Part shown: in pieces, positions 10,147-38,364 of the stretch
Numbering within the stretch: the first letter of the stretch is position 1
Layout of the letters: every line of letters begins with the position of its first letter
Origin: Pricia mediterranea
GTDB lineage: Bacteria; Bacteroidota; Bacteroidia; Flavobacteriales; Flavobacteriaceae
NCBI RefSeq assembly: GCF_032248455.1
Contig: NZ_JAVTTP010000001.1
Location: forward strand, 2,168,501 to 2,232,500
DNA length: 64,000 nucleotides
Direction: 5' to 3'
Notes under the pieces: generated by a model
What the model saw: the letters and a program-made list of their open reading frames with translations, nothing else
What the model was told of the DNA's origin: nothing
Database searches by the model: none
Position numbers and translations under genes: made by a program

Positions 10147-10233
10147 CTATTTTTATCACGGACCGATTTAAATTTTAATATGAAACAAAACCCGTTTAAT
10201 CTATCGGATGCAAACAATCCTAATAAAAAGCCT

Positions 10234-11316: not shown

Positions 11317-12723
11317 ATGCGTACCAAAAGATGGCAACGAAGAGTATTGAGGACTGTTGGCATATTGGCCGTTATGCTAGGGTTGCTGTTTTATTTTGCT
11401 GCCGACACCATTGAAACCGATCCTTATTTCGAGTCTGGGTATTATAAAATTACCTTGGCTAAGGTGGATGACGCCTTCCAAGAAAAAATAGAAGCCCAAG
11501 GGCAGTTTTTAGCAGGTTTTGCCCGCATGAACATCACTCCAAAATATGTGAAGGATTCGCCAGATGCCGCGAAGGGCGAGTTCAGTTCGATCAAATTGGC
11601 CGGGTATGGCGATGGACAAATAGCTGTGGGTGTTCATGACTCCTTGTTTGCCAAGGCCATCGCTTTGGAAGTAGATGGCAATGAACTGATCTTTTTAAGT
11701 GCCGATATGGTCGTCATTCCCGAACTGGTAGTGCTAGAGGTCGAATCGAACCTAGACAGCGAAATTGCAAGAGCACAAATTTTATACGGTGCAACACACA
11801 CGCATGCCAGTATTGGAAACTGTATTCCAGGCTTCGTGGGTGAAAGCTTTATGGGTGACTTTCAACCCGAAGTGGTCGAATGGCTCGGAAAGAAATTTAC
11901 GCAGCTCATTCTCAATGCTCGAAAAGACAGGAAGCCTGCAAGGTTTTCCTCGGGCGATATCAGGGTCCCGAATTTGATACGCAACCGCATTATCGGGGAA
12001 ACCGGCAGACTAAACGACAAGTTGAACGTGGCAACTTTTGCACAACACGAGGGCAAAAAAGCCGCCATCGGAATCTTCGGTGCCCATGCCACTACTATAG
12101 GTCCGTGGAACGACAAATTCAGTGGAGACTATCCCGGTTATTTTCAAAGAAGTCTCGAAGCCAAAGGCATAGATTTGGCGCTATTCTTTGCCGGAACGGT
12201 AGGCAGCCATTCCAACAAAGGGAAGGGCGAAAAATTTCAGAAGTCACGATACATCGGAGAAACTTTGGCCGATTCGGCCTCGGTGCTAATCAACAAAATG
12301 GAAGCCGATTCGATTTTGGCAATGACGGTAATAACTACTGAGATCGAAATCCCGGAACTTCAGGCTTTCTATGTTTCCGACCGGTTGCGACTTTCGCCGT
12401 GGGCAGGGGGCAAAATGATGGCCGAAATGAAATCGATTTATCTACAAGGCGTAAAACTAAACGATTTGCTGTGGATTACGATGCCTTACGAGCTGAGCGG
12501 CGAATACGGAATAGATTTGAAAAACGCCTTGGAGGTAGCGGGTTATAACTCTGCCCTCACCAGCTTCAATGGGCAATATTTAGGCTACATCGTACCTCAA
12601 AAATATTATTATTACGACACTTATGAAGCCCGATTGATGGGTTGGTACGGTCCTAGTATGGGAGATTACCTGATGGAGCTTAACTTCAGACTGGCCAATG
12701 AACTCACGGATTCCCGACTATAA
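11317..12723 (+). CDS. Neutral/alkaline ceramidase N-domain hydrolase, membrane-anchored
   Basis: The 468-residue protein starts with a positively charged segment and one membrane helix (ILAVMLGLLFYFAADTI), then the ceramidase N-domain pattern: GFARMNITP, KLAGYGDGQIAVGVHDSLFAKAIALE, LIFLSADMVVIP and the metal-site motif YGATHTHASIGN. It is shorter than true neutral ceramidases (about 650-750 residues) and lacks their C-terminal immunoglobulin-like domain. In Bacteroidota such short forms sit in carbohydrate loci and probably act on another amide or ester. Its end overlaps the convergent oxidoreductase gene by 6 bp. The fragment at 5601 is a relic of a related protein. Confidence 0.8.
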   Translation: MRTKRWQRRVLRTVGILAVMLGLLFYFAADTIETDPYFESGYYKITLAKVDDAFQEKIEAQGQFLAGFARMNITPKYVKDSPDAAKGEFSSIKLAGYGDGQIAVGVHDSLFAKAIALEVDGNELIFLSADMVVIPELVVLEVESNLDSEIARAQILYGATHTHASIGNCIPGFVGESFMGDFQPEVVEWLGKKFTQLILNARKDRKPARFSSGDIRVPNLIRNRIIGETGRLNDKLNVATFAQHEGKKAAIGIFGAHATTIGPWNDKFSGDYPGYFQRSLEAKGIDLALFFAGTVGSHSNKGKGEKFQKSRYIGETLADSASVLINKMEADSILAMTVITTEIEIPELQAFYVSDRLRLSPWAGGKMMAEMKSIYLQGVKLNDLLWITMPYELSGEYGIDLKNALEVAGYNSALTSFNGQYLGYIVPQKYYYYDTYEARLMGWYGPSMGDYLMELNFRLANELTDSRL

Positions 12724-13725
12724 ATTCACGACTTCTCCCGTTTTTGCGGATTCGTATGCCGCATCAACAATATTCAGAACGATCTGACCTTCCGACAGAC
12801 CGGGATTCGGTCTTTTATTGTTTTTGATGGAGGCAATAAAATGTTCCATTTGCTTATCGTAGATGGTCTGATCGCAATGTTCTTTCCTATTGGGCAGGTC
12901 TGGAATAATTTTCTCGAAAGACTCTTCCCCGGCGGTTATTTTCAAAAAGGTCGGGAAAAGGTTGGCATATCCCTTGGTGCCGAATATACCGGCACTTGCT
13001 TCGGGACCGTCCATATGGGGCTGCCACCAGCCGCTTTCGATGATGCTTTCCGTACCGTTATCCCAAGTGATGACCATGATTCCGGTATCGTCAACGTCGT
13101 AGTCCCCAAAGTGTGTTGCAATCCGGGCATAGACTTTTAAGGGCCTTGGGTCGCCCAACAGATATCGTACGGCATCGACGGCATGGACGCCCATATCGGC
13201 CAAGGCACCGCCGCCCGCCAATTCCTTTTTTGCAAACCATCCTGATGGCCCCCAATTCTCGTGGATGCCATAGCCCTTGGTCTTAAAAATTTTTCCGAGT
13301 TTTCCCGAGGCGATAGTCTCCTTTATATAATTTACATCGGTATCGAAGCGCCACATGTGCCCGACCATGACCAAGCGATTATATTGCTTCGCCGTTTTTT
13401 CAATCTGCCGGCCTTCCGCGGCATTTATGGCCATGGGCTTTTCCAGGAAAACATGCTTCCCGTTTTTTAGGAATTCGATAGCGTAAGGCGCATGGAATTG
13501 ATTCGGGGTACAGATAATGACCGCATCAATGCTGTCATTCCCCGCTACTTTTAAAGTATCGGTAAAGGTGTGCTCGATACCATATTCAATTGCGAATTTT
13601 TGGGCACGCTCCTTTTTTCTGGCCACAACCGCAGCAATCTGAACGTTTGGTGTCGCTTTAAGGGCACGGGCGTGGTAGTGGGCAATGAAACCGGCACCAA
13701 TTATTGCTACTTTAATGTTGTCCAT
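12718..13725 (-). CDS. Gfo/Idh/MocA-family NAD(P)-dependent oxidoreductase
   Basis: The 335-residue cytoplasmic protein has the N-terminal Rossmann motif VAIIGAGFIAHYHARAL, the family hallmark FLEKPMAINAAEGRQI near residue 95, and the substrate-domain segment GGGALADMGVHAVDAVRYLLG. These enzymes oxidise or reduce a hydroxyl of a sugar or cyclitol, or catalyse oxidoreductive glycoside cleavage in some cases. It is the last gene of a three-gene minus-strand operon (49 bp after the VCBS gene). The context with a dehydrogenase propeller suggests sugar oxidation chemistry. The exact substrate cannot be called. Confidence 0.92.
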   Translation of the reverse strand: MDNIKVAIIGAGFIAHYHARALKATPNVQIAAVVARKKERAQKFAIEYGIEHTFTDTLKVAGNDSIDAVIICTPNQFHAPYAIEFLKNGKHVFLEKPMAINAAEGRQIEKTAKQYNRLVMVGHMWRFDTDVNYIKETIASGKLGKIFKTKGYGIHENWGPSGWFAKKELAGGGALADMGVHAVDAVRYLLGDPRPLKVYARIATHFGDYDVDDTGIMVITWDNGTESIIESGWWQPHMDGPEASAGIFGTKGYANLFPTFLKITAGEESFEKIIPDLPNRKEHCDQTIYDKQMEHFIASIKNNKRPNPGLSEGQIVLNIVDAAYESAKTGEVVNL

Positions 13726-18129: not shown

Positions 18130-19410
18130 TTACATCAAATTTTCGGCACTATCGTAAATCTTTTTTATTGCAGCAGCAATGAGGTCCATATCCCCACGGT
18201 TCCCCAGTAATACCTTATGGTGGATGCATACGGATTCTTCCTTAAAGATGCGTTCACAGACAGGCAATGAAAAACGACTGGGATCAATAGCATTCCAGTA
18301 GCTCTCGTTCAGCTTATGGCGGGCCGGTTTGGTGTGCGGCACATACAACGGACACATATTCAAGGGTTCATAACAGGCATCTATCATAATATCCAATTCT
18401 GCTTCAAGCGCACTTCGGAATCTATCGACCGGTAAGTCCTTAAACTCCTTTTTATTGTACCGAAAAGCGAAATTAAAATAAGCTTTTTTGGTCTCCCTGG
18501 CGTCTCTTTGCAAGGGGGAGACCCCAGGGATTTTCTCAAAAAGTCCGTTTAAATAGGTACCGTTGGCTTCCCGAACGGCATTTTGCTCGGGCATCCTTTT
18601 AAGGCCTTCTACGAGAATCGCCGCTTGAAACTCGGTAATCCTTAGATTGCCCGACTGGATGAAATTGCCTTCATCCCCATAGTCGCCGATACCTTTATCC
18701 GCCCCGATGAGGGAATCTCCTTCGGGTCTGCGGCCACAATTACGTAGGGCATCCAGTTTCTCGGCCAAATCCGGATTGTCTGTCGTCATGGCGCCGCCTT
18801 CCCCGGCGGTCAGGTGTTTGGAGAGCTGAAAGCTAAAGCTACCAACATCGCCGATGCTCCCCGCTTTTTTGCCCCTCCATTCACCCCCGTGTTTATGGGC
18901 ACAGTCCTCTATGACATAAAGCTCGTGTTTTTCGGCAATTTCCATAACGGCATCCATATCGGAAAAGGCTCCGTACAAATGCACGGGAATGACCGCCTTT
19001 GTGCGTGGGGTGATGGCCTTTTCGATTGCTGCGGGGTCGATGCACCATGTATCTTCAAGAACATCGACCAAAATCGGGGTAGCGTTCACGTCGAGCACCG
19101 TTGCGGCGGTCGCCTGCCAGGTAAGCCCCGGCACAATCACCTCATCTCCGAGACCGATACCCATGGCCTCCAGAGCGAGTTGCATGGTCAAGGTGCCGTT
19201 GACGGTGCAGATGGAATATTTAACGCCTGTGAACTCGGCAAAAAGTCGATTAAATTCTGTTTCCTTAGGGCCGTTGTAGGACCATACGCCGCTGTTCAGC
19301 ACCTCGACCAGAGCCTTTTCCTCTTCTTTCCCCCAAGCCGGCCATTTCGGCCAAGGATGGGAGCTCGTATTACGGCAGGGTTTCCCCCCTTGAATCGCTA
19401 ATTGTTGCAT
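18130..19410 (-). CDS. DegT/DnrJ/EryC1/StrS-family PLP aminotransferase
   Basis: The 426-residue protein opens with LAIQGGKPCR, the hallmark of the StsC/AHBA-synthase-like branch of DegT aminotransferases. PLP residues are evident: YVIEDCAHKHGG (Asp169 for the pyridine nitrogen) and SFSFQLSKHLTAGEGGAMTT with Lys198 as Schiff-base lysine. This branch transaminates keto-cyclitols or 3-keto sugars (for example scyllo-inosose). In a catabolic operon it may instead remove or shuttle an amino group. Its 5' end overlaps the GH2 gene by 41 bp, so expression is coupled. The combination with an exo-glucosaminidase-like GH2 points to amino-sugar chemistry; direction and substrate are unknown. Confidence 0.92.
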   Translation of the reverse strand: MQQLAIQGGKPCRNTSSHPWPKWPAWGKEEEKALVEVLNSGVWSYNGPKETEFNRLFAEFTGVKYSICTVNGTLTMQLALEAMGIGLGDEVIVPGLTWQATAATVLDVNATPILVDVLEDTWCIDPAAIEKAITPRTKAVIPVHLYGAFSDMDAVMEIAEKHELYVIEDCAHKHGGEWRGKKAGSIGDVGSFSFQLSKHLTAGEGGAMTTDNPDLAEKLDALRNCGRRPEGDSLIGADKGIGDYGDEGNFIQSGNLRITEFQAAILVEGLKRMPEQNAVREANGTYLNGLFEKIPGVSPLQRDARETKKAYFNFAFRYNKKEFKDLPVDRFRSALEAELDIMIDACYEPLNMCPLYVPHTKPARHKLNESYWNAIDPSRFSLPVCERIFKEESVCIHHKVLLGNRGDMDLIAAAIKKIYDSAENLM

Positions 19411-22006
19411 CGTTGTTCGTTTTTGTTTTGTTCAAATTCCAACCAGCTACTTCTAATTCCGGTACTGCGGTACTGGTAAAGGTGGCTCGTAACGTTCTTT
19501 TTTCGCCCGGCAATAAACTGATAAAATTATCTTCCCAGAAAATAGGGAGAATGGCTTCCCCCGTCTCCTTCTCGATTACATGAAGGTTGATTAGAAAAGC
19601 GATGACAGTACCGTTATTTTTCAACGTGGCGGATATTGCCACGGCATCCCCATCTTCTTCAAGGTTACAGACCACCTCAACATTTACCTTTGACAGGGTA
19701 TTTAGCAAGTTTAGATCAGCGTACTGTTTGCTGGGGGTGTGGTAAGCGAATTCGCCGAGATATGCTTCGTAATCCAGGGTTTCCTCTCGGGTGGAAAGCC
19801 AATAGAAATTAGTATCCATTTCTTTGTTCTGCGCATCGCGAAGCCGAAGATCTAAAAAGTAAGTGGTCGATAAACCTCCTTTCTTGGCTGCAGTTTTAAA
19901 TACAGAAACGGAACTGTCGGCAGGCGCGTCCAAAGTCCTTTCTTCCTCCAAAACCAGCTGTGAATCAATGTCATAAACACGGATCCGGGCCTTCAAGCCT
20001 TCCATGTCCTGCTTATGATCATTGATCAAATAAACTTGACGGTCGCCATAATTGTAAGCCAGATGTAAGGCGGAACAGGCTTTTTGAGTCGCATAAAAGG
20101 CCCCCGTGGGCATCAGGTAATAATCGTAGAGCTGCCAGTACATTTTTGGCCAAGCCGCATTCAACATCCATTGAACCACGCCGGTACATTTCTTTTTATT
20201 GACCTGAAAGGCCTCGAACATGGGGCGCATCAGTTCGTAATTCATGGCCTGAGCCTTTCTATCGAACTCTTCTATAGAATTAGGCTTGCCGTAACGCGCG
20301 TTGAGAGCCTTCTCAAAGCGGTCCAGTTTTTTGAATTCATAAAGTCCGCAGTGATAGTCCCATATTTCGTTGATCGGCCATAATTTGTCACGGGGGATGA
20401 ATTTTTTAAGGCTCTTCAGTTGGGGTGGTTGGGCGCCGGGACCTGTTTCAGTGTTAAATCCATACGCTCCGCCAAACTTGGTATCCGTAAACCAGTACCT
20501 TGGCGCTGTATAGGCATAGGGACCCAGCATCTTTACGCCCGAAGAACCGCTGATTTCACTGACGACGTCTTCGCTACCGACCACGTGTTGATCGCTGCCC
20601 ACGCCCCCGGTCGAATTAAGATAGGGCCGGTCGGGGTCGTATTCGGCAAAGGTCTCGATGTATTTTTGCTCCAAGACCGTAATGGGGACCTTGTCGCTGG
20701 CAACCGTCCAAACAAAGATACTGGGATGGTTGCGAAGCCAAATCACCTGTTCTTGCCAAGCTTGTGCAATGTGTTCGATATCTTCGGGTCTGTAAACCCC
20801 GCCGTAACGCTCATCGACCGGGATGCCCATATGGATTTCATGCTCCCAGTGGCAGCTCCATCCGACCATCAGCAAAATACCGTGTTTATCGCATAGATCG
20901 TACAGTTGGTGATCTTTGCCCCATATTCCTTCGAGACGTATGCAGTTGAGGTTCATCTGCTTGACGTACCGCACTTGGGCTTCGAGGCTTTTATCCGAAT
21001 CCTTTAAAAACAGGTCATCGGTCCACCCCGCCCCTTTGATCATTACTTTCTGTCCGTTAATCTTATAGCCGCGATGGATGTCGTTCAACCAATAGGCTTC
21101 GACCTCCCGGATACCGAAGGTTGTTTTTTCGGCACTTGAAACACGACCGTCAACGATAAATTCCAATTCCAGTTCGTAGAGATCGGGGCTTCCCAGATGA
21201 ACCGGCCACCAAAGCCTAGGGTTTTTGAATGCCAACTGTGGAAATTCATCGGGCCTGAATTCCACCCGTGTTTCACCCCGTGCCGAAAGGTTTATGTGCC
21301 GCTCGAATACTTTGGATGCTATCCGTCCTTTTAGAATCCCCGAGACTTCTTTTGAGGTATCGTTTTTCATTTCGGTCGTCACGGTCAGATCGGCATGCTT
21401 TAAGGTTTTCAGGTCAACCTTGGTCCGAACAAAGGGGTTTTCGATGCGCACCCCGTGATGCAGACGTAAGCTTACAGGCCTGAAAATACCCATATTGCCA
21501 TCGGGCGGGGCGGGATTCCAATCCACATAGCCTGTACTAAAATCGCCGGGCTTGGGGGGTAATACCTCAACAGCCAAAAAGTTGCGCCCTTTAACAATGT
21601 TTTTGCTTACCTCGAAAGAAGTGCGTCGGTAGGCGCCGTTGATTTCTGAAGGGCCGGCAATTTGCTTACCGTTCAGCCAGACCTGCGCCTTGTAGTTGAT
21701 GCCTTCAAACTTTAATACGGCAAATGATTCCGCTTGATCCGTGTCGAGAGTAAAATCGGTGGCATACCACCAAGACACTTCGAACTGCTCTGTCGCTATG
21801 TTTTTAAGATTGTCCCCAACAAAGGGATCTTTGACGATTTCTGCATCGACTAAAGCACCAAGTACCGTAGAAGGGACTTCGGCATCGATCCAGTGATCTA
21901 TTTTCCTACCTGGGCTCGAAATAACCGATCCCGCATCGGAAACATCCCTTGAGGATCGTATTCTCCAATGCTGCGACAGCTGTATCTTAATAGGATTGCC
22001 GTTCAT
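19370..22006 (-). CDS. GH2-family exo-beta-D-glucosaminidase-like glycosidase, no signal peptide
   Basis: The 878-residue protein has the GH2 layout: sugar-binding jelly roll (30-190), immunoglobulin-like domain (190-300), TIM barrel (300-600) and C-terminal beta domains. The barrel closely follows exo-beta-D-glucosaminidase (CsxA-type): NHPSIFVWTVASDKVP with acid/base Asp438, KMLGPYAYTAPRYWF, GGAYGFNTETGPG with nucleophile Glu520, ALNARYGKP, and GVVQWMLNAAWPKMYWQLYD. The Asp in place of the usual GH2 Asn-Glu acid/base is diagnostic of that group. The start MNGNPIKIQL has no signal peptide, so it likely acts in the cytoplasm on an imported oligosaccharide. It lies 10 bp after a small membrane-protein gene. 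Confidence 0.9.
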   Translation of the reverse strand: MNGNPIKIQLSQHWRIRSSRDVSDAGSVISSPGRKIDHWIDAEVPSTVLGALVDAEIVKDPFVGDNLKNIATEQFEVSWWYATDFTLDTDQAESFAVLKFEGINYKAQVWLNGKQIAGPSEINGAYRRTSFEVSKNIVKGRNFLAVEVLPPKPGDFSTGYVDWNPAPPDGNMGIFRPVSLRLHHGVRIENPFVRTKVDLKTLKHADLTVTTEMKNDTSKEVSGILKGRIASKVFERHINLSARGETRVEFRPDEFPQLAFKNPRLWWPVHLGSPDLYELELEFIVDGRVSSAEKTTFGIREVEAYWLNDIHRGYKINGQKVMIKGAGWTDDLFLKDSDKSLEAQVRYVKQMNLNCIRLEGIWGKDHQLYDLCDKHGILLMVGWSCHWEHEIHMGIPVDERYGGVYRPEDIEHIAQAWQEQVIWLRNHPSIFVWTVASDKVPITVLEQKYIETFAEYDPDRPYLNSTGGVGSDQHVVGSEDVVSEISGSSGVKMLGPYAYTAPRYWFTDTKFGGAYGFNTETGPGAQPPQLKSLKKFIPRDKLWPINEIWDYHCGLYEFKKLDRFEKALNARYGKPNSIEEFDRKAQAMNYELMRPMFEAFQVNKKKCTGVVQWMLNAAWPKMYWQLYDYYLMPTGAFYATQKACSALHLAYNYGDRQVYLINDHKQDMEGLKARIRVYDIDSQLVLEEERTLDAPADSSVSVFKTAAKKGGLSTTYFLDLRLRDAQNKEMDTNFYWLSTREETLDYEAYLGEFAYHTPSKQYADLNLLNTLSKVNVEVVCNLEEDGDAVAISATLKNNGTVIAFLINLHVIEKETGEAILPIFWEDNFISLLPGEKRTLRATFTSTAVPELEVAGWNLNKTKTNNDATISDSRGETLP

Positions 22007-22016
22007 GCGTACACCA

Positions 22017-22250
22017 TCAATTTAAATCTTCGGGTTTATATTTTTTCAAGGTGTGGCTGGATTTCCACACCATACCTCCTCCTATAGTCAATAAAACCAA
22101 TCCTGCGACCAAATCGGTCATCTGCTGGACAAAAGTTTCCGTGAAGTACATGGCGATTATTATGATGACCCCGAATAGGCATATGAAAACCCCCAAAGCA
22201 CGGTTTATTTGCGCCGTTTTGATTCTATCCATTCGCTCCTTGCCCTTCAT
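22017..22250 (-). CDS. Small membrane protein of the SSS-GH2 operon (77 aa)
   Basis: The ATG at 22250 starts MKGKERMDRIKTAQINRA followed by two hydrophobic helices (LGVFICLFGVIIIIAMYF and a second of about 20 residues, LVAGLVLLTIGGGMVW) and a polar tail. The same frame stays open upstream to 22463, but that extension overlaps the neighbouring small gene and encodes Arg-rich, non-membrane sequence, so I reject it. It lies 11 bp after the next small gene and 10 bp before GH2. No family is recognised. An accessory subunit of the symporter or a stabilising micropeptide is possible. Confidence 0.7.
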   Translation of the reverse strand: MKGKERMDRIKTAQINRALGVFICLFGVIIIIAMYFTETFVQQMTDLVAGLVLLTIGGGMVWKSSHTLKKYKPEDLN

Positions 22251-22261
22251 GCTACAACGGT

Positions 22262-22477
22262 TTAAAATTGATAATACACACTTGCCAGTATGATTAGTAC
22301 GGCCAACGACCAGAGTTTTAGATTGTTCCACCAGTGGCGATTTTCCTTGGCGATACCTTCGAATATATAATCGTTCGGAAGCATCATGACCAACGCCCCG
22401 ACGACGAAATAAAGTCCGAAAAATATCAATTTTGCGGTTTCTTTGGAAATTCCCGAAAGCCAATCGAAATTTAACAT
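22262..22477 (-). CDS. Small membrane protein adjacent to SSS symporter (71 aa)
   Basis: The 71-residue protein MLNFDWLSGISKETAKLIFF... has two predicted membrane helices (LIFFGLYFVVGALVMML and LWSLAVLIILASVYYQF) separated by a polar loop with KENRHWWNN. Its ATG is 1 bp past the SSS stop codon, strongly implying translational coupling. Such short two-helix proteins occur beside some SSS symporters (compare the small YhdT/DUF997-type partner of pantothenate symporter PanF), but I cannot assign it to that family. Function is inferred only from position. Confidence 0.75.
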   Translation of the reverse strand: MLNFDWLSGISKETAKLIFFGLYFVVGALVMMLPNDYIFEGIAKENRHWWNNLKLWSLAVLIILASVYYQF

Positions 22478-22478
22478 G

Positions 22479-23987
22479 TCACAGGGTTTCGTTTTTAGTG
22501 ATGATTTTCGGGCTGAATACCAACCCTTCGAGGTTCGCCTGGGTATGTCTTTTGGTCAACAAGCTTACTAGAACATTAATAATAAAGGCCAAGAGAAACG
22601 ACCACCAGGAAACATATAGGAAAGGATCCTCTATCGTAAACAAATGGGATTTGGACAGGTTTAGGTACACCGCAAAGCCAATTCCGACGACCAATGCGGA
22701 AAGTCCGCCCCATTGGGTGCTTCGTTTCCAAAAGATTCCCAATAACAAAATGGCGAACAACGGGCCTTGAAAGTAGGACATAAATGTCTGTATCGCCACG
22801 TAAATTCCGGGGAAGTCACTACTGATCGGCGCTGTTGCCACCCCAAGGCCCAACAACACCAAAGTGGTTATCTGGCCCACTTTCAGATAGTGTTTATCTC
22901 CGGCGTTCTTTTTGATAAAAGGCTCATAGATATCCTTGGTAAACAAGGTTGCGGTAGAATTCAGTAACGAATCTACACTGGACATCAGTCCGGCAAAAAA
23001 TGCAGCAAACATCAGTCCGACCAAGCCCGGTGGCAGTATCGTTTTGATCATCATCGGCAGGGCCTGGTCGCCGTCTAGTAAATCGGGATGCACGACAACC
23101 GCCATCAGTCCCGGAAACAATACCAAAATGGGGATAAGCATTTTCAGGGCCGAGCCAAAAATCATACTAGCCTTGGCGTGCCATTCGTTCTTTGCGGTGA
23201 GACAGCGTTGCACTATGGATTGGTTGCCGATCATATAGGCGTTCGCCATAACGAAAGTGAGTCCGAATAAAATGCCTGTCCACGGAAACGGCGAAGGGGT
23301 GTCGATAGGCCTTATAATGTCAAAGTGGCTCTGGTACTCCGGCCCCATACTCATGATTTTATCGACCATGTTCACCCATCCTCCTACGGCATCGAGACTG
23401 AGAAACACCAGGGCGAAACCCCCGATGAACATGATGATCATTTGAACGACGTCGGTCATAATCACTGCCGTGATGCCTCCGAAATAAGTATAGAGGCCCA
23501 CGACCCCGGCGGTAGAAAGTATCGATACCCAAATCGGCCAACCCATTAAAACGTTCAAGAGTACGGCACTGGCCCAAAAAAGCACCCCGAGATCTAGGGC
23601 GAAAAAAAGAATCCACGTGGCCGATGCGATGGTACGTACCGATCTATTGTACCTTCTTCCCAAATATTCGGGGATGGTGTACATTCCCCCGCGCCAGAAA
23701 TAAGGGATAAAAATAAAAGCGGCCAACAGCATCGCCGGCACGGAGCCCACCCAATCAAAATTACCCACGGCGATACCATAGCGGTACGCCTGCCCCGAAA
23801 CCCCTACAAAATCGAGAGCACCGATATCGGAGACCACTATCGACATGCCTATGGCCCAAAAAGGCAGGCTCTTACCCCCTAAAAAATAATCTTTGGAACT
23901 GCCGACAAACCTTTTAAAATAAAGTCCTAATAAAAGCATTCCCACGATGTAGGCTATAACGATAAAGTAGTCGATTCCGCTTAGCAT
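22479..23987 (-). CDS. SSS-family sodium:solute (sugar) symporter
   Basis: The 502-residue integral membrane protein has about 13-14 helices and the SSS pattern: a start with YFIVIAYIVGMLLLGLYFKR, FLGGKSLPFWAIGMSIVVSD, IPEYLGRRYNRSVRTIAS, YFGGITAVIMTDVVQMIIM, and FAAFFAGLMSSVDSLLNSTA with the conserved Ser-Ser-x-Asp-Ser sodium site. This set fits sugar-type SSS proteins (SGLT-like). As the first gene of the operon with the signal-less GH2, it would bring the oligosaccharide released in the periplasm into the cytoplasm. It is transcribed divergently from susC at 24286 across a 298-bp region. Confidence 0.93.
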   Translation of the reverse strand: MLSGIDYFIVIAYIVGMLLLGLYFKRFVGSSKDYFLGGKSLPFWAIGMSIVVSDIGALDFVGVSGQAYRYGIAVGNFDWVGSVPAMLLAAFIFIPYFWRGGMYTIPEYLGRRYNRSVRTIASATWILFFALDLGVLFWASAVLLNVLMGWPIWVSILSTAGVVGLYTYFGGITAVIMTDVVQMIIMFIGGFALVFLSLDAVGGWVNMVDKIMSMGPEYQSHFDIIRPIDTPSPFPWTGILFGLTFVMANAYMIGNQSIVQRCLTAKNEWHAKASMIFGSALKMLIPILVLFPGLMAVVVHPDLLDGDQALPMMIKTILPPGLVGLMFAAFFAGLMSSVDSLLNSTATLFTKDIYEPFIKKNAGDKHYLKVGQITTLVLLGLGVATAPISSDFPGIYVAIQTFMSYFQGPLFAILLLGIFWKRSTQWGGLSALVVGIGFAVYLNLSKSHLFTIEDPFLYVSWWSFLLAFIINVLVSLLTKRHTQANLEGLVFSPKIITKNETL

Positions 23988-24203: not shown

Positions 24204-24237
24204 TTGAGGTTTTCCCAAAATTATTAACATAGCTTTG
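24204..24237 (+). promoter_or_regulatory. Bacteroidota-type promoter of the SusCD operon
   Basis: TTG (24204-24206), 23 bp, then TAGCTTTG (24230-24237), an exact TAnnTTTG -7 element. Transcription would begin near 24244, downstream of the ATG at 24235, which supports ATG 24286 as the real susC start. Confidence 0.5.
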
Positions 24238-24285: not shown

Positions 24286-27200
24286 ATGAAAACAAATAAT
24301 CTTTGCTACCTCCCGCTCTTAGTGTTCAGCTTGTTTACCGGCGGCCTATTTGCACAGAGCCAGATATCCGGAACGGTTACCGACACCGCGGGAGACGTTC
24401 TGCCTGGCGTTTCCGTTGTACTTAAAGGAACCGTAACAGGGGTGACTACCAATTTTGACGGCCAATACACCATTTCGGTACCGGATGCCCAATCCATTCT
24501 AGTATTCTCATATTTAGGAATGTCCAGCAAGGAAATAGCTGTTGGAAATCGATCGAACATCGATGTGGTTCTAGAGGCTTCGTCCCAAGAACTGGACGAG
24601 GTCGTAGTCACGGCACTTGGAATCTCCCGCGAAAAAAAGTCGCTCGGCTACTCCGTCAGCGAGGTCGGTGGCGATGCCATCGACAATGTGCCGCAGGAAA
24701 ATGCCCTGAACGCGCTTTCCGGGAAGGTATCGGGAGTAGCGATAAACTCGACGGGAACTCCCGGTTCATCTGTGAGTATGGTCATTCGGGGATCGACCTC
24801 ATTATCAGGGGATAATCAACCTCTATTCGTAGTCGACGGCGTGCCCATTTTCAATACGTTGAACAATGTAGGGGGCGTCGGACGAGATAACCGCGTCGAC
24901 TATGGCAATGCCATTTCGGATATCAACACCGATGATATCGAGAGCATGACCGTTTTAAAAGGCGCCAGTGCAGCGGCCCTCTACGGATCCCGCGCGGGCA
25001 ATGGCGTTGTGCTTATCACCACCAAATCGGGTAAATCGAGGAAAGGTCTGGGGGTCACGGTTAACTCCAGTACCGTTTTTGATATCCCCTACCGTTACCT
25101 GGATACCCATTCCCGATTTGCCGCCGGATCACGACCCTATACGCCAGATAATTTCCCGACCAACCCTTATGGTGAAATCTTGATCAGCGAAACCGCATCC
25201 GCATGGGCCGGCCCCGCTTTGGACCAAGGAATCAAGGCCATTCACTGGCCCTATACCGCGCAGGAGCTGGAGAGCGGAAATCCCGTAGCCCGGGAACTTC
25301 GATCGCACAACAATCCGAAAAATTTCTTTAATACGGCCATAACGACGACCAACAACATTTCAGTACAGGACAACACCGAAAAAGTGAATTACCGGCTGTC
25401 GTACAACCACCTGAAGAACAAAGGGTTCATTCCGAATACAGATCTCAACAAGCACAGTATCAACCTAAACTCAAAAATAAACCTGAACCAAAACGTTTCG
25501 GTGAGCTCCAGTTTGAACTACACGAAAACTTATGCCGACAACCGACCGGCCGGTAATAGAGGGGCCAACCCCATCCAGGCCATGTACGAGATCGCCCCCC
25601 ATATCGATGTGCGGGACCTCAAACAGTATTGGTTGCCGGGATTTGAGGGACTGTTTCAAAATTCGCCCTTTGAGTTTGGCGACGATCCGACCGAAACCGA
25701 ATGGAACAATCCGTATTTTTTGGCCAACGAGGTTAACAACGGCTTTGTTAGAAATCGCTTTTATGGGAACATCAGAGCCGACTATAAAATCACAGACGAC
25801 TTTAGCGCCATGCTGCGCTACAATTATGATGAGATCAACGAACAGCGCGAAACCAAGATATCGAACGGCTATACCAACGAAATGAACGGCGCCTACGGGC
25901 TGACGGATATCTTCCGCAAAGAAATCAACGTCGATTTTTTGCTTACCTATGAAAAGAACTTTACGGATTGGGACTTTAGTGTGTCTTTCGGGGGCAACCA
26001 ACGCAAGTTCGACGCTACTACCGTAAGAAATGCCACCAAAAGCAGAGGGCAAGGCCTTTTGACGCCTAATCTTTTTACCTTGAGCAACATAGCGCCCAAC
26101 AACCTTGATTTCGATTCCTATAAACAGGAAAAGAAGGTCAATAGTCTTTACGGACTGGCCAGTATCGGGTTTAAGGATATGTTTTATTTAGATGTCACCG
26201 GCAGAAACGACTGGTCAAGCACCCTGCCCGACAGCAACAATTCTTACTTTTACCCCTCGATATCGGGAAGCCTTTTATTGAACAACGCTTTCGATATGGG
26301 CAACAAAGTGTCATTGATCAAGCTTCGGGCCGGTTATGCGGAGGTCGGAAACGACACGGATCCCTACAATCTGATTCCCGTATTGAACAGTGGTGGTTCA
26401 TGGGGCGATGCCTCCCTGCTTTCCGTACCGGGCGACCTATTGAACACAGGGCTGAAACCGGAGTCCCAGAATTCTTGGGAGGTCGGTGTCGATATGGCCT
26501 TCCTAGGCAGTCGTCTGCGCTTGGATGCCACCTACTACGAAAGTGACAATCGGGATCAGATATTCCCGGTAAACAACCCCATCTCCTCCGGCTATGATAC
26601 CAAATTCATCAACGCCGGCCTGCTTACGAGCGAAGGAGTCGAGGCCAGTCTCGGGGGCACTCTCGTAACCAATAGGGACTGGAACTGGGACATGGATTTT
26701 GTTTTTACCAGAAACCGCACTACGGTTGTCAAACTTGCGGAAGACATGAATTCGATAACGTTGTGGACCGATGCTAAGGGAGGTGCCATTACCTGGCTCG
26801 GAGAAGAAATAGGCAATATTGTAGATCGTGAGTTGGTTCGGGTCGAAGATTTAAACTCCCCCTACCACGGATGGCCCCTGATCGATGACGAGGGTTTTGA
26901 GAACAGTGACCGTACCCTAGAAGATGAAGATGGGAACCGTGTCGCCCCCATCATAGGCAATTTCAATCCCGATTTTATATTGGGCATGACGACTTCGGTG
27001 TCTTATAAAAATTTGTCGCTCTCCATGAATCTCGATTGGCGCAAAGGCGGACAATTCGTCTCACAGACACACCGTTACGGGGAGTCTGACATGCATACCC
27101 AACGCTGGCTCGACAAATTGCATAATTTGAATGACGTAGGGGACATTCCCACCTATATAAAAGAGAATGAGAATCAATATCTGTCCGAAGATGGCGAATT

Positions 27201-27699
27201 TTACGTGCTGGTCGGTGGCCCTACCGCCGAAGACGGAGGCTTCCCCGTTGACGATGGAGGCATCACCCTTAGCGATGGGGTCTTTATGCCCGGGGTACAG
27301 GGCGAATATGATGATGACGGAAATTTTGTGGCGACCTCTGAAAATCTGGGTGGTCCGGGAACGGTCTATACGCGATACCAAGACCATTATGGTTGGGACT
27401 TCACCAGAAACGCAACCTTTGATTCCGACTTCGTTAAGCTTCGGGAGATTTCCCTGTCCTACGCATTGTCATCAAAAAACCTACAACAAATAGGCATTCA
27501 GAACATGACCATTTCATTATTCAGCAGAAACGTGATACTCTGGACCAAGGCAGATATCGGAATCGATCCCGAGATGGCCTTCCAACCGGAATCGGATGTA
27601 CAGGGGAGAAGCGGTATTCAATTCAAACAGGGTATCGAACGGTTCAATGTGAATCCTTTTGCCATTCCCGTTGGCTTCAAATTGAATTTTAGTTTCTAG
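24286..27699 (+). CDS. SusC/RagA-family TonB-dependent outer-membrane transporter (second copy)
   Basis: From ATG 24286 the protein has 1137 residues: signal peptide (FSLFTGGLFAQ), carboxypeptidase-regulatory-like domain (VLPGVSVVLKGTVTGVTTNF), TonB-box region (ELDEVVVTALGISREKKSLG), plug with SMTVLKGASAAALYGSRAGN, barrel with RNDWSSTLPDSNNSYFYPS and C-terminal GFKLNFSF. An upstream in-frame ATG at 24235 would lie before the predicted transcription start, so I choose 24286. It is paralogous to the SusC at 986. It leads a long operon with SusD and catabolic enzymes and probably imports the glycan that those enzymes dismantle. Confidence 0.96.
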   Translation: MKTNNLCYLPLLVFSLFTGGLFAQSQISGTVTDTAGDVLPGVSVVLKGTVTGVTTNFDGQYTISVPDAQSILVFSYLGMSSKEIAVGNRSNIDVVLEASSQELDEVVVTALGISREKKSLGYSVSEVGGDAIDNVPQENALNALSGKVSGVAINSTGTPGSSVSMVIRGSTSLSGDNQPLFVVDGVPIFNTLNNVGGVGRDNRVDYGNAISDINTDDIESMTVLKGASAAALYGSRAGNGVVLITTKSGKSRKGLGVTVNSSTVFDIPYRYLDTHSRFAAGSRPYTPDNFPTNPYGEILISETASAWAGPALDQGIKAIHWPYTAQELESGNPVARELRSHNNPKNFFNTAITTTNNISVQDNTEKVNYRLSYNHLKNKGFIPNTDLNKHSINLNSKINLNQNVSVSSSLNYTKTYADNRPAGNRGANPIQAMYEIAPHIDVRDLKQYWLPGFEGLFQNSPFEFGDDPTETEWNNPYFLANEVNNGFVRNRFYGNIRADYKITDDFSAMLRYNYDEINEQRETKISNGYTNEMNGAYGLTDIFRKEINVDFLLTYEKNFTDWDFSVSFGGNQRKFDATTVRNATKSRGQGLLTPNLFTLSNIAPNNLDFDSYKQEKKVNSLYGLASIGFKDMFYLDVTGRNDWSSTLPDSNNSYFYPSISGSLLLNNAFDMGNKVSLIKLRAGYAEVGNDTDPYNLIPVLNSGGSWGDASLLSVPGDLLNTGLKPESQNSWEVGVDMAFLGSRLRLDATYYESDNRDQIFPVNNPISSGYDTKFINAGLLTSEGVEASLGGTLVTNRDWNWDMDFVFTRNRTTVVKLAEDMNSITLWTDAKGGAITWLGEEIGNIVDRELVRVEDLNSPYHGWPLIDDEGFENSDRTLEDEDGNRVAPIIGNFNPDFILGMTTSVSYKNLSLSMNLDWRKGGQFVSQTHRYGESDMHTQRWLDKLHNLNDVGDIPTYIKENENQYLSEDGEFYVLVGGPTAEDGGFPVDDGGITLSDGVFMPGVQGEYDDDGNFVATSENLGGPGTVYTRYQDHYGWDFTRNATFDSDFVKLREISLSYALSSKNLQQIGIQNMTISLFSRNVILWTKADIGIDPEMAFQPESDVQGRSGIQFKQGIERFNVNPFAIPVGFKLNFSF

Positions 27700-27741: not shown

Positions 27742-29433
27742 ATGAGAATCAGTAACAAAACCATAGGCACAATCCTGGCAACAACCGTCTTCTTGGCGCT
27801 CTCCTGTGATAAGGATATTACCGAAATCAATAAAAACCCCAATGGGGTGAACCTAGACGAGGCCAATCCGAGTTTCCTGCTCACGGAAGTGATGGCCAAA
27901 ACCGCCAAGGACATAGGCAACAATGGCTATGCCGAGCCTTTGGCCGCTTTTGTCCAGTACATACAAAAAGATTCTTGGGGAAACAACAACTATGACTGGG
28001 AAGGCGGTGGCTGGGAAGGTTACTACAACAGCCTACGCACCGCAGACCTCGCCCTCTCCCGCTCGATGGAACTGGATATGAGATTCCATCAAGCAGTGGC
28101 CATGATCATGAAGGCCCATCTCTTCGGTCTATTGACAGATTTTTATGGGGAGGTGCCCTATTCCGAAGCCCTGCGCGGCGACACCGATGTCAATCTTCCC
28201 AAGTATGACGCACAGGAAACCATTTATAAGGGAATAATAGCGGATTTTGAAGCCGCTTCCTCCCTTTTGTCAAATAACCAAGGCCAACTGGAACAATTTC
28301 TGCCGTCACAGGATATCTATTTCCAGGGCGATTCGGAAAAGTGGATCAAATATGCCAATTCCCTGGCCTTACGCTATTATATGCGTCTTTCCGAAAAGGA
28401 CCCTTCGTTCGCTGGTTCCGGTGTTCAAAAAACCTTGGGCAAACCTTTAATCTCAAGTATCGACGAAGAATGTGCCGTACCCTATGTCGGGGTCAGTCCC
28501 GACGATTCACAGCCTAGCAACGGGAGAAGCGGTACACCCTCGCAATTTACCCGGGTAAAGCCCTGTGAGACCCTGGTCGGAACCTTGGTCAACTTGGACG
28601 ATCCCAGACGTCATATATGGTTCGCCCCCGTTGCCATTCCCATTCAAGTAGTGCCTTCTGAAGAGGTACCCGGCGGTGGCGACGACGTTGTTGTCGATGG
28701 AGTCCGGTATATTAATGAAGCGTCCTTGGCCGATAACTTTACCATCTACAATCCCGAAACCTGGTACCAAGATCGGTTGGACGGCCTGACCCTAATAGAT
28801 ACCAGCTCGGTCTATGTTGGCATCCCCGTATCTGTTCAAGGTACCGAGCCTTATACCTATAACCTTAATCCACAGCCCACGCAAGGGGGCGACAACGTGC
28901 ATGTTTCAGAAATGGATCCGCAATTCAACGAAACGGCGGGGCCCTACCTGAAAGCCCGTATTTTATCGTATGCCGAAGTCGCTTTCTTAAAGGCCGAGGC
29001 CGCTTTAAAAGGATGGGGGGTCGATGCAGAAGAAAATTACAACACTGGAATACAGGCGTCTTTCGATGCATGGGGCATCGGTGACCTTGCCGCAGATTAT
29101 ATGGATAACGACGGAGTGGCTTTCGACGGAACCTTACAACAGCTTATGGAGCAAAAATGGATTGCGAACTTTTCGGCAGCATCCGAATCGTATATGGATT
29201 GGCGTAGAACCGGTCTGCCCGAGCTTAGGCCCGGCCCTTTCGCCGTTGCGGATGTTATTCCCGTCCGCTTCGTGTACCCCGACAACGCCCGCAACTTCAA
29301 CAGCCAAAATTATAACGATGCCCTGGAAGACCTTGAAGTCACCCCGTATACCGATGCTGTGCCCGGCTATGTAGAAAATGACACCCCTTGGTCCAAACCT
29401 TGGCTTCTGCAGGGGGTTGCGGAACCCTGGTAA
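27742..29433 (+). CDS. SusD/RagB-family outer-membrane lipoprotein (second copy)
   Basis: The 563-residue lipoprotein (FLALSC) has the SusD opening DITEINKNPNGVNLDEANPS, the helical core with HLFGLLTDFYGEVPYSEALR and SEKWIKYANSLALRYYMRLS, and a C-terminal WIANFSAASESYMDWRRTG followed by LRPGPFAVADVIPVRFVYP. It caps SusC and binds the ligand at the cell surface. It lies 42 bp after susC. Its similarity to the left-edge SusD (for example PYSEALRGDTDVN and PYSDALRGSEGAE) shows duplication of the pair within one locus. The ligand cannot be read from sequence. Confidence 0.95.
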   Translation: MRISNKTIGTILATTVFLALSCDKDITEINKNPNGVNLDEANPSFLLTEVMAKTAKDIGNNGYAEPLAAFVQYIQKDSWGNNNYDWEGGGWEGYYNSLRTADLALSRSMELDMRFHQAVAMIMKAHLFGLLTDFYGEVPYSEALRGDTDVNLPKYDAQETIYKGIIADFEAASSLLSNNQGQLEQFLPSQDIYFQGDSEKWIKYANSLALRYYMRLSEKDPSFAGSGVQKTLGKPLISSIDEECAVPYVGVSPDDSQPSNGRSGTPSQFTRVKPCETLVGTLVNLDDPRRHIWFAPVAIPIQVVPSEEVPGGGDDVVVDGVRYINEASLADNFTIYNPETWYQDRLDGLTLIDTSSVYVGIPVSVQGTEPYTYNLNPQPTQGGDNVHVSEMDPQFNETAGPYLKARILSYAEVAFLKAEAALKGWGVDAEENYNTGIQASFDAWGIGDLAADYMDNDGVAFDGTLQQLMEQKWIANFSAASESYMDWRRTGLPELRPGPFAVADVIPVRFVYPDNARNFNSQNYNDALEDLEVTPYTDAVPGYVENDTPWSKPWLLQGVAEPW

Positions 29434-29607: not shown

Positions 29608-31935
29608 ATGAACGGAAAAATATCCTGGCTGTTTTTGATCGTTGTATTCACCTGTTGCCAGGGCGGGAAAGAGCATCATCTTAATCTATCCAGAGTCACC
29701 CTGCTGATAGCACCTTCGATAGAAGCGTCTTTTGGTAAGACCGTAAAAACCGTCCTTTCCGAAGAAATCGGGAAAAGGACGGGACTAGAACTCGAGCTCG
29801 GCGATGCTTGGGACTCGGGACCTGTAATCGCCGTGACCTTAAGCGGGAATAGCGAATTGTATGGCAGAACGGTGCCGACCAGGGACGAAGGACATCCTGA
29901 AAACCAGAAAGAAGGCTACCGCTTGGTACATCAAACGGAGCATGGAAAAGACATACTTTATATAATAGGGGCCGACAAAAGGGGAATTCTATATGGCATC
30001 GGCAAGTTGCTGCGCACGGCCGACATGCAACAGGACCAATTCTCGATTGCCTCGGAAATCGATATTTCCGAATCTCCCGAATATGCCCTTCGCGGTCACC
30101 AATTCGGCTATCGCAACACTGCGAATTCGTGGGACGCATGGACGGTAGATCAGTTCGACCAACATTTTCGGGAACAGGTGCTCTTTGGGGCCAACAGTTT
30201 TGAGAACATCCCCTTTCAAGATCCCGGTTCGAGCGTTCACTTTAAGATCGATCCGCAAAAGATGGAAATCGAGCTGAGCAAGATCTGCGAGAAATACGAT
30301 GCCGACTATTGGGCCTGGACCCCTGCCCCAGGTGACTTGACCCAACCCACCGCACGTAAAGAGGGGCTTCGACAGCAAGAAGCTTTTTATGCCCGATGCC
30401 CGAGATTGGACGGTGTTTTTGTGCCCGGCGGCGATCCGGGAGACAACCATCCGTCCGATTTAATACCCTACCTAGAGAACCTTTCCACGCTTTTAAGACA
30501 ATATCATCCCAAGGCCGGCATCTGGGTCTCCCTGCAAGGTTTCGATAAGGAAAAAACGGATTATTTTTTCCGATATCTTGAAGAGAAAAGGCCGGACTGG
30601 CTCGCGGGACTGGTCAACGGGCCCAGCAGTCCGCCTTTGGAATTGGAGCGTAAGCGTTTGCCCAAGAAATACAAGTACCGCTTTTATCCCGATATCACCC
30701 ATACGGTCCGCTGCCATTACCCCGTGAAAAACTGGGACCAGGCCTTTGCGCTGACCCTAGGGCGCGAGCCTTGCAATCCGCAGCCGCTACGATACACCGA
30801 ACTTTTTCGTCGCGACGTTCCGATTACCGATGGCTTTATCACCTATTCCGACGGTTCGCATGATGATGTAAACAAGGCAATATGGAGCCAACTCGGCTGG
30901 AATCCGGAAAAAAAACCGGAGGATATCCTGATGGAGTATTCCCGCTTTTATTTCGGTCCCGAAACTGCGGTAGCGGCCACGGAAGCCACATTCGGACTAG
31001 AACGAAACTGGGAAGGTGCGATCGCGGACAACGCCACGATTAAGGGAACCCTGATGCGCTGGAAGAAGCTGGAAGCCGAGAACCCCCACCTGCAAGGCAA
31101 CTGGCGCTGGCAACAGCTTCTCATGCGGGCCTATTACGATGCCTACATCCAAGCTCGCCTTGCCTACGAGAAAAACCTGGAGCAGGAAGCCTATCGTATT
31201 CTTGCCGATGCCGATAGGAAAGGAGCGGACAAAGCCATGGCCGAAGCTTTGAATCAGTTGCATCAAGCCGACCGAAAACCGGTGGCCCCATCCCTTAGGG
31301 AAAAGATTGTCCAGTATGCCGACAAACTGTACCGGTCTGTCGGGGCGCAGACCAGTGTGTCCAAACATCAGGCCCGCAGTGCTGAAAGAGGCGCTGTTCT
31401 CGATTTTATCGACCACCCCCTGAACAATAGATGGTGGCTAGAAGATGAGTTCGAAAAGATAAAAGCTTTTTCATCGGAAAGAGAAAAACTGGCTCGGATT
31501 AAATTCATTCGAACTTACGCATCGCCGGGGGAAGGTAGTTTTTATGACAATATTTCAAGTGTGGATGCCACGCACGTCACCTCGGAAACAGACGATGCCA
31601 TCGATTATTTATGGGAAAATGATGGCCGAAGCAGAAGACGGCTGTCTACACAACTGTTCCAGTTTACACCGACCCTGGAGTATGACGGGCTCGATTCCGA
31701 AGCCGACTACCTGATACGCGTCGCGGGTTACGGGGAAGCCCTATTGCGCGCGAACGGAACACGGTTGAGTCCCTCTTTATATGAAAAAGAATACGGACAA
31801 TTCAAGGAATTTCCTTTACCCAGGAATCTAATCGGTACCGGAAAGTTGAAAATTACTTTCGACACACCCAATGAGGCTCATCTCAATTGGAGAAAGCAGT
31901 CCCGCGTCACCGAAGTTTGGCTTTTGCGACAATGA
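29608..31935 (+). CDS. Putative glycosidase lipoprotein, GH20b/alpha-glucuronidase-like N-domain
   Basis: The 775-residue lipoprotein (VVFTCC) has an N-terminal domain (about 30-140: VTLLIAPSIEASFGKTVK, ILYIIGADKRGILYGIGKLL) like the GH20b fold preceding hexosaminidase, GH84, GH67 and GH115 barrels. A likely TIM-barrel region follows (YALRGHQFGYRNTANSWDAW, YWAWTPAPGDLTQP, GVFVPGGDPGDNHPSD, GIWVSLQGFDKEKTDYFF, FYPDITHTVRCHYPV), then a helical and beta C-terminal part. I cannot identify the catalytic pair or place it in a CAZy family with confidence. As the first gene after susD, it is the prime candidate for cleaving the imported oligosaccharide in the periplasm. Confidence 0.75.
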   Translation: MNGKISWLFLIVVFTCCQGGKEHHLNLSRVTLLIAPSIEASFGKTVKTVLSEEIGKRTGLELELGDAWDSGPVIAVTLSGNSELYGRTVPTRDEGHPENQKEGYRLVHQTEHGKDILYIIGADKRGILYGIGKLLRTADMQQDQFSIASEIDISESPEYALRGHQFGYRNTANSWDAWTVDQFDQHFREQVLFGANSFENIPFQDPGSSVHFKIDPQKMEIELSKICEKYDADYWAWTPAPGDLTQPTARKEGLRQQEAFYARCPRLDGVFVPGGDPGDNHPSDLIPYLENLSTLLRQYHPKAGIWVSLQGFDKEKTDYFFRYLEEKRPDWLAGLVNGPSSPPLELERKRLPKKYKYRFYPDITHTVRCHYPVKNWDQAFALTLGREPCNPQPLRYTELFRRDVPITDGFITYSDGSHDDVNKAIWSQLGWNPEKKPEDILMEYSRFYFGPETAVAATEATFGLERNWEGAIADNATIKGTLMRWKKLEAENPHLQGNWRWQQLLMRAYYDAYIQARLAYEKNLEQEAYRILADADRKGADKAMAEALNQLHQADRKPVAPSLREKIVQYADKLYRSVGAQTSVSKHQARSAERGAVLDFIDHPLNNRWWLEDEFEKIKAFSSEREKLARIKFIRTYASPGEGSFYDNISSVDATHVTSETDDAIDYLWENDGRSRRRLSTQLFQFTPTLEYDGLDSEADYLIRVAGYGEALLRANGTRLSPSLYEKEYGQFKEFPLPRNLIGTGKLKITFDTPNEAHLNWRKQSRVTEVWLLRQ

Positions 31936-38256: not shown

Positions 38257-38364
38257 GGTTCTATAAGAATTAAGTAGTTCTATAAACGATTCCCAACAAA
38301 TAAATTGAATTATATGATATCGAGCCACCAGTATTTTATAGGCTTTGCATCATATCTTGACCAA

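Follow-up and report, generated by a model that had tools for sequence, protein, structure and literature searches.

An uncommon, conserved gene cassette joining an exo-glucosaminidase-like GH2, a DegT-family protein and a sodium:solute symporter in Pricia mediterranea, and its possible role in the use of amino-sugar glycosides

Why should a single gene block of a bacterium combine an exo-glucosaminidase-like glycoside hydrolase that lacks a signal peptide, a sodium:solute symporter (SSS) and a protein of an aminotransferase family? The question is raised by a locus of Pricia mediterranea within a 64,000-nucleotide stretch of DNA (contig NZ_JAVTTP010000001.1, positions 2,168,501 to 2,232,500; the whole stretch is called the window here), where genes for the SSS protein, two small membrane proteins, a family 2 glycoside hydrolase (GH2) and a DegT/DnrJ/EryC1/StrS-family pyridoxal phosphate (PLP) protein (DegT) follow one another. 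This cassette is real, conserved and uncommon, and a search of the literature found no description of it. The explanation of the whole that we favour, tentatively and short of calling it probable, is that the genes serve the catabolism of an amino-sugar glycoside, because the residues that mark subfamily GH2_16 are kept, importer type and GH2 location covary, a Gfo/Idh/MocA dehydrogenase (Gfo/Idh) lies near DegT, and a second DegT clade shares partners with the first.

On the minus strand the genes run in the order of transcription SSS, 71-aa protein, 77-aa protein, GH2 and DegT, and all five open reading frames (ORFs) were found where the original prediction had placed them, together with its 41-bp overlap of the GH2 and DegT genes (Table 1). 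Relatives were gathered by scanning public genomes with peptide patterns of the window DegT, a procedure that favours close relatives; of 109 found, the best 80 were kept, and DegT was at least 60% identical to that of the window in 79 of the kept loci. Conservation of the DegT neighbourhood, on which the original prediction depended, was borne out: GH2 lay no more than 6 kb from DegT in 49 of the 51 loci with at least 6 kb of upstream and 1.5 kb of downstream sequence. The exceptions were L072 and L078, the latter scored as GH2-less, yet showing a C-terminal piece of GH2 beside masked bases. The same 51 loci held an SSS importer in 35 cases, a major facilitator superfamily (MFS) importer in 13 and neither within reach in three; L068 was scored importer-less in this count, yet it ends inside an SSS gene and is among the 40 SSS loci of the location count given below. 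In 50 of the 55 loci with 5 kb or more of downstream sequence, a Gfo/Idh gene (at least 50% identity) was no farther than 5 kb from DegT. The GH2 and DegT frames, each taken from the first start codon of its ORF, overlap by some length in 11 of 79 loci, and by exactly the 41 bp of the window in L001, L002, L005, L006 and L030. Judged by the titles of their records or by tree labels, the loci belong to Bacteroidota, Chlorobiota, Ignavibacteriota, Planctomycetota and Acidobacteriota, many of them from metagenome bins. Records of Bacteroidota, Chlorobiota and Planctomycetota show the arrangement again, and one of Acidobacteriota shows part of it, so that it is more than a product of chance. Its rarity is equally plain. 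Of 299 genomes of the family, 10 hold a GH2 at 59% identity or more, and the cassette-clade DegT was found in the window's own genome only, among 395 genomes of the phylum, with five others holding matches of 40-44%. The nearest named relatives of the window DegT and GH2, in the DegT scan and in the trees, are from Pricia.

The constancy of these neighbours bears on one alternative, a plain locus for the use of chitosan or hexosaminides with a DegT that is incidental or regulatory. Neighbours suited to hexosamine use (a CsxA-type GH2, an NagP-like MFS protein, a ROK kinase and GH20) speak for such a locus; the proximity of GH2 to DegT in 49 of 51 loci, the overlapping frames in 11 of 79 and the retention of the catalytic Lys and Asp by DegT speak against it, and we consider it unlikely.

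The nature of the GH2 was judged from its domains, its active site and its place in a tree. It matches the Ig_GlcNase domain of Pfam (PF18368, 1.2e-27) and, in a sequence search of the Protein Data Bank (PDB), CsxA (2vzs, 3.6e-146), and its E359, S437, D438 and E520 align with E394, S468, D469 and E541 of CsxA, the CsxA-type pair Asp438/Glu520 of the original prediction thus falling on D469/E541. A 2025 subfamily paper defines the GH2_16 beta-glucosaminidases by SD replacing NE and by Glu replacing His (PMC12243196). The window GH2 has the SD at the acid/base position (S437 D438), and it has E359, aligned with CsxA E394, which is presumably the Glu meant in that definition (PMC12243196). The alignment comprised CsxA and 88 relatives, among them L081-L090, most of which probably duplicate genomes already present among L001-L080; these ten rows were omitted from the tree. 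Ser and Asp are both kept in 77 of the 88 relatives, duplicates included, and the other 11 divide into seven second, signal-bearing copies and four remote NE-type proteins whose identity is 26-28%. In a FastTree tree of 90 rows one branch (96) joins the window GH2, CsxA and a Streptomyces protein annotated as exo-beta-D-glucosaminidase, with NE-type GH2 proteins apart; long branches meet near CsxA, leaving the exact order unsure. The phylogeny that had been proposed as a check therefore places the window GH2 on the CsxA branch and not with the NE-type rows. Because active-site residues and tree position agree, the assignment as an exo-glucosaminidase-like GH2_16 enzyme is sound, and release of beta-D-glucosamine is predicted. 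A mannosidase reading was ruled out by the alignment of the SD motif and by the distance from NE-type rows. The likeness to the GH2_16 exo-beta-D-glucosaminidase CsxA extends over domains, SD motif, the equivalent of Glu394, nucleophile and tree position; unlike CsxA, the window GH2 has no signal peptide and sits in a gene block with an importer and DegT. The second GH2 copies, in L038, L040, L045, L048, L054, L058 and L076, begin in a signal-like way and have DE where the others have SD, with Ser at the nucleophile position; they are possibly inactive or of a different mechanism.

A stop codon stands six codons upstream of the GH2 ATG in the same frame and leaves no room for an earlier start that would bring in a signal peptide; an overlooked one is thereby ruled out, in accord with the original prediction, and the signal peptide of secreted chitosan exo-glucosaminidases is absent from the window enzyme. 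Across the relatives, signal peptides were scored by a hydropathy threshold rather than by a trained predictor, and the count covered the 62 loci with an intact GH2, five in which a contig edge truncates GH2 being omitted. By this threshold the GH2 N-terminus was hydrophobic in 0 of 40 SSS loci and in 15 of 16 MFS loci, and the sixteenth MFS-locus GH2 (L035) is lipoprotein-like by eye, below the threshold. In the six loci with neither importer in reach, the N-terminus was signal-like in two and not in four. Most simply read, this means that SSS takes up the glycoside uncut and MFS the sugar once it has been freed. As importer type switches together with GH2 location, these counts argue for the earlier proposal that an intact glycoside enters through the SSS protein, and import of the whole glycoside followed by cleavage in the cytoplasm is probable. 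The MFS loci form one clade on the DegT tree; in a further lineage (L119) a signal-bearing GH2 stands with MFS and ROK genes, and the six GH2 proteins found with the second DegT clade are lipoprotein-like by eye, with an MFS gene in the locus of two. The nearest models of the MFS protein are gluP, fucP and NagP, each under cut-off.

The importer itself belongs to the SSS family by Pfam (PF00474, 4.6e-77) and by TIGR00813 (324 bits against a cut-off of 184), and its best PDB match is the sodium/glucose cotransporter 2xq2 (4.5e-72). Both small proteins accompany an SSS copy (at least 60% identity) in 40 of 40 loci, and the Planctomycetota loci keep SSS and the small proteins in another orientation. 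In the family sample the 71-aa protein occurs in 10 of 299 genomes, the same ten that hold GH2 at 59% identity or more; a general accessory role in SSS transport is thus unsupported, since the protein is confined there to cassette genomes. The 77-aa protein has only sub-cut-off Pfam matches (YtpI, Mntp).

The cassette is a variant of carbohydrate utilisation loci. Its DegT protein matches PF01041 (1.5e-97), and the best PDB matches are the 2-deoxy-scyllo-inosose aminotransferases 5w70, 5w71 and 2c7t, which align over almost the entire protein with scores of 328 to 316 bits, the next match reaching 188.5 bits. We take StsC and BtrR to be the names of this group. The PLP-associated Lys and Asp of the inosose aminotransferases are present as Lys198, the expected Schiff-base residue, and Asp169, both kept in 96 of 97 rows, the remaining row being a wrong reading frame. 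The window protein has His172 where 5w70, 5w71 and a Sodalis row have Gln. In a quick tree of 89 rows with long branches, from which 15 near-identical cassette rows were omitted and in which StsC itself is absent, 65 cassette DegT proteins form one clade (SH-aLRT 99). This clade adjoins, and does not fall within, a separate clade (98) that holds 5w70, 5w71, a Streptomyces row and a gene of Sodalis located some 7 kb away from one for a 2-deoxy-scyllo-inosose synthase. The label StsC-type in the original prediction is therefore right as to the nearest PDB group and too strong as to membership: the cassette DegT shares with these enzymes the best PDB matches and the Lys and Asp, and differs in its separate clade, its His172 and its catabolic-looking setting. 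The transamination of a keto-sugar, also part of that prediction, is a conjecture as to both direction and substrate. Another clade of DegT proteins (L113:8851-10254, L114:8746-10254, L116:8986-10359, L117:8986-10401 and L118:8971-10359) has, by eye, a Tat-like twin-arginine start in four of its five members, the L114 row having no Tat-like stretch in its first 50 residues; the starts suggest exported PLP enzymes, and several of these loci have ceramidase-like or Tat-like neighbours.

In the catabolic reading that we favour, a SusC/SusD pair (SusCD) and a lipoprotein glycosidase would deliver a small beta-glucosaminide to the periplasm, from where SSS and its two small membrane partners would import it whole, as the correlation of importer and location suggests. 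The cytoplasmic GH2_16 would remove a terminal beta-D-glucosamine-type residue, judging by its active-site residues, and DegT, acting in the catabolic direction, would pass an amino group, from either C2 or C3 of the amino sugar so freed, to a 2-oxo acid. Gfo/Idh would reduce the resulting keto-sugar to a hexose, and a sugar kinase would phosphorylate that hexose, ROK genes being present in many loci. Glucosamine deaminated by reverse action of DegT would give glucosone. Some Gfo/Idh enzymes reduce 2-keto sugars, and beta-glucosamine is like scyllo-inosamine in that all groups are equatorial. The route of deamination and reduction by DegT and Gfo/Idh is doubtful taken by itself. More doubtful still is the complete scheme, that is, a phosphorylation-independent catabolism of amino sugars with intact import, a cytoplasmic cut, reverse deamination by DegT, reduction by Gfo/Idh and a three-part SSS importer with dedicated subunits.

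A known pair bears on this step. The inosose aminotransferase MosB and the inositol dehydrogenase IolG/IdhA act in sequence in rhizopine chemistry (PMC6668481). The likeness to the cassette lies in an aminotransferase and an inositol dehydrogenase that handle a ketone or amine on a ring carbon; the pair differs in being biosynthetic, with no coupling to a glycosidase or importer described in the part of the source that was available, and it is compared here as a pair of enzymes, not by any DegT-family membership of MosB. It is conceivable that the cassette is biosynthetic as well, with Gfo/Idh oxidising a sugar or cyclitol, DegT aminating it to an amino sugar or aminocyclitol, and GH2 and importer supplying the precursor. 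Rhizopine is made by a pair of this kind (PMC6668481), and a 38%-identical DegT with an adjacent Gfo/Idh occurs in an apparent Streptomyces biosynthetic cluster; the setting of SusCD, glycosidases and importers tells against this view, as does the lack of any glycosyltransferase or secondary-metabolite family among the recurring neighbour clusters that were identified, a scan that covered part of the clusters. We regard it as very unlikely.

Several observations weigh against the catabolic reading. The window's own genome has a NagB over cut-off, so that glucosamine needs no new route there. Gfo/Idh is not within 5 kb of DegT in 5 of the 55 loci (L043, L050, L066, L072 and L074), and the second DegT clade has no constant Gfo/Idh neighbour. 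The two ROK matches of the window's genome lie outside the window; in favour of the reading, on the other hand, a ROK-kinase cluster was found in 23 of the 80 kept loci and an MFS cluster in 20, each family being assigned from one representative. The match of importer and GH2 location amounts to one switch on the DegT tree and one or two other lineages, and is weak as independent evidence. Finally, flavobacterial loci have extra genes, for GDPD in 18 loci and for acid phosphatase in 10, together with genes for HAD proteins, the families being taken from representatives; these extras hint at a phosphate-bearing substrate and are unexplained by the proposed route. A sphingolipid substrate, an idea drawn from GDPD and ceramidase-like neighbours, was set aside: glucosamine (GlcN) in the sphingolipid setting is alpha-linked, a mismatch to the beta specificity of the GH2.

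The presence of NagB fits another division of labour, in which GH2 frees glucosamine for a kinase and NagB while DegT and Gfo/Idh process the aglycone. That aglycone would be an aminocyclitol or an amino sugar; inosamine, for instance, would be turned into inosose and then into inositol. The closest solved relatives of DegT are 2-deoxy-scyllo-inosose aminotransferases and the best PDB match of Gfo/Idh is myo-inositol 2-dehydrogenase, in a near tie with glucose-fructose oxidoreductase, both of which are in keeping with a cyclitol aglycone. Set against these are the position of DegT outside the inosose aminotransferase clade, with its difference at His172, and a Gfo/Idh score far below the IolG cut-off (177 against 355 bits). 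We hold this reading to be rather unlikely.

If the favoured catabolic reading is true, nitrogen would be removed from amino sugars without NagB and retained as amino acid, which is relevant to bacteria of marine and sediment carbon turnover. A function would also be given to a DegT clade that spans several phyla and numbers 80 proteins in the tree, as well as to two membrane proteins that lack annotation, with a pointer to a new glycosidase family.

Some of the partners recur beyond the cassette clade. A second clade of DegT proteins shares 38-43% identity with the window DegT and is present in 85 of 200 genomes of another Bacteroidota family; 21 loci were selected from these 85, and DegT was called in 20 of the 21. 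A GH2 relative occurs in 6 of the 21, always within 4 kb of DegT and with all four active-site residues kept, the 775-aa protein of Table 1 has relatives in 11, and one or the other is found in 13. The GH2_16 and 775-aa partners are thus common to two DegT clades. MFS of the same kind occurs in 8 of these 21 loci, GH20 in 8 and ROK in 5, with families taken from L115 representatives.

Table 1. Features of the Pricia mediterranea locus (positions within the window)
Feature	Position	Strand	Basis
Gfo/Idh/MocA dehydrogenase	12718..13725	-	Pfam PF01408 9.1e-34
DegT/DnrJ/EryC1/StrS-family PLP protein, 426 aa	18130..19410	-	PF01041, best PDB 5w70, 5w71, 2c7t
GH2/DegT reading-frame overlap, 41 bp	19370..19410	-	ORF coordinates
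GH2, 878 aa, CsxA-type (GH2_16), exo-beta-glucosaminidase-like	19370..22006	-	PF18368, CsxA 2vzs, residues, tree
77-aa protein mem78, two predicted membrane helices	22017..22250	-	Hydropathy
71-aa protein mem71, two predicted membrane helices	22262..22477	-	Hydropathy
SSS (sodium:solute symporter) protein, vSGLT-like	22479..23987	-	Pfam PF00474, NCBIfam TIGR00813, PDB 2xq2
SusC-like TonB-dependent receptor, divergent from SSS gene	24286..27699	+	Pfam PF07715, PF13715
SusD-like lipoprotein	27742..29433	+	Pfam PF12771 2.6e-78; conserved
775-aa lipoprotein-like protein, unclassified GH84/GH20/GH115-like glycosidase family	29608..31935	+	Predicted fold

The original prediction lacked three things: the Gfo/Idh partner, the form of the cassette with MFS as importer, and the half of the locus that encodes SusCD and the GH84-like protein. 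Two genes (14970-17843 and 13775-14959) lie between DegT and Gfo/Idh in the window, and the SusC, SusD and 775-aa genes face the SSS gene; the ATG at 24286 was chosen by reading as the SusC-like start, in an ORF that opens at 24235. Adjacent SusC and SusD genes, the mark of a polysaccharide utilisation locus, are therefore present, and the likeness to such loci of Bacteroidota consists in this pair, a lipoprotein glycosidase and an inner-membrane importer. To our knowledge, DegT and dedicated small membrane proteins are unusual parts for loci of this kind. A SusC relative stands beside SSS in all nine flavobacterial genomes examined, and a member of the 775-aa family is found on that side in eight of them; in the Planctomycetota loci no relative of the window SusC or SusD was seen.

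For the 775-aa protein Pfam gives no model over cut-off and the PDB no match by sequence, and GH20b scores 20.6 bits against a cut-off of 26.1; its resemblance to GH84 and GH20 hexosaminidases is thus one of predicted fold and not of sequence. The AF2 model (pLDDT 73.9, pTM 0.73) was matched by Foldseek to GH115 and GH67 alpha-glucuronidases and to GH84 and GH20 hexosaminidases, and VIA-align placed GH84 first (Z 24.0, rmsd 6.9 over 482 residues, 12% identity). From the model the protein is a candidate for a new glycosidase family, the fold not being telling of the substrate.

Other genes recur nearby. A 778-aa family (window 35992-38328; also in L041, L065, L066 and L072) is found near DegT cassettes and has no Pfam, NCBIfam or PDB match; its low-confidence model (pLDDT 63.7) suggests a beta-propeller and a helical part. 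A PfkB-HAD fusion, an SIS isomerase, a ROK kinase and a GSU2086-family protein (NF052581) lie near the cassette in varying sets in L032, L043, L064, L067 and L068. In L125:14836-17561, genes for NAD-synthase-like, AIR-carboxylase-like and nickel-insertion proteins stand in a row (LarE/LarB/LarC-like), and the upstream part of L068 resembles this row by reading alone. Because of the LarE/LarB/LarC-like genes in L125, the GSU2086-family neighbour was considered as a nickel-pincer (LarA) protein; the idea was rejected, the neighbour having no Pfam or PDB match, NF052581 as its only model and a consensus that by reading is unlike LarA. A BNR_2 (sialidase-like) protein is encoded in the window at 10180-11316, and one lies between GH2 and DegT in eight Arenibacter loci (L007-L012, L014 and L027).

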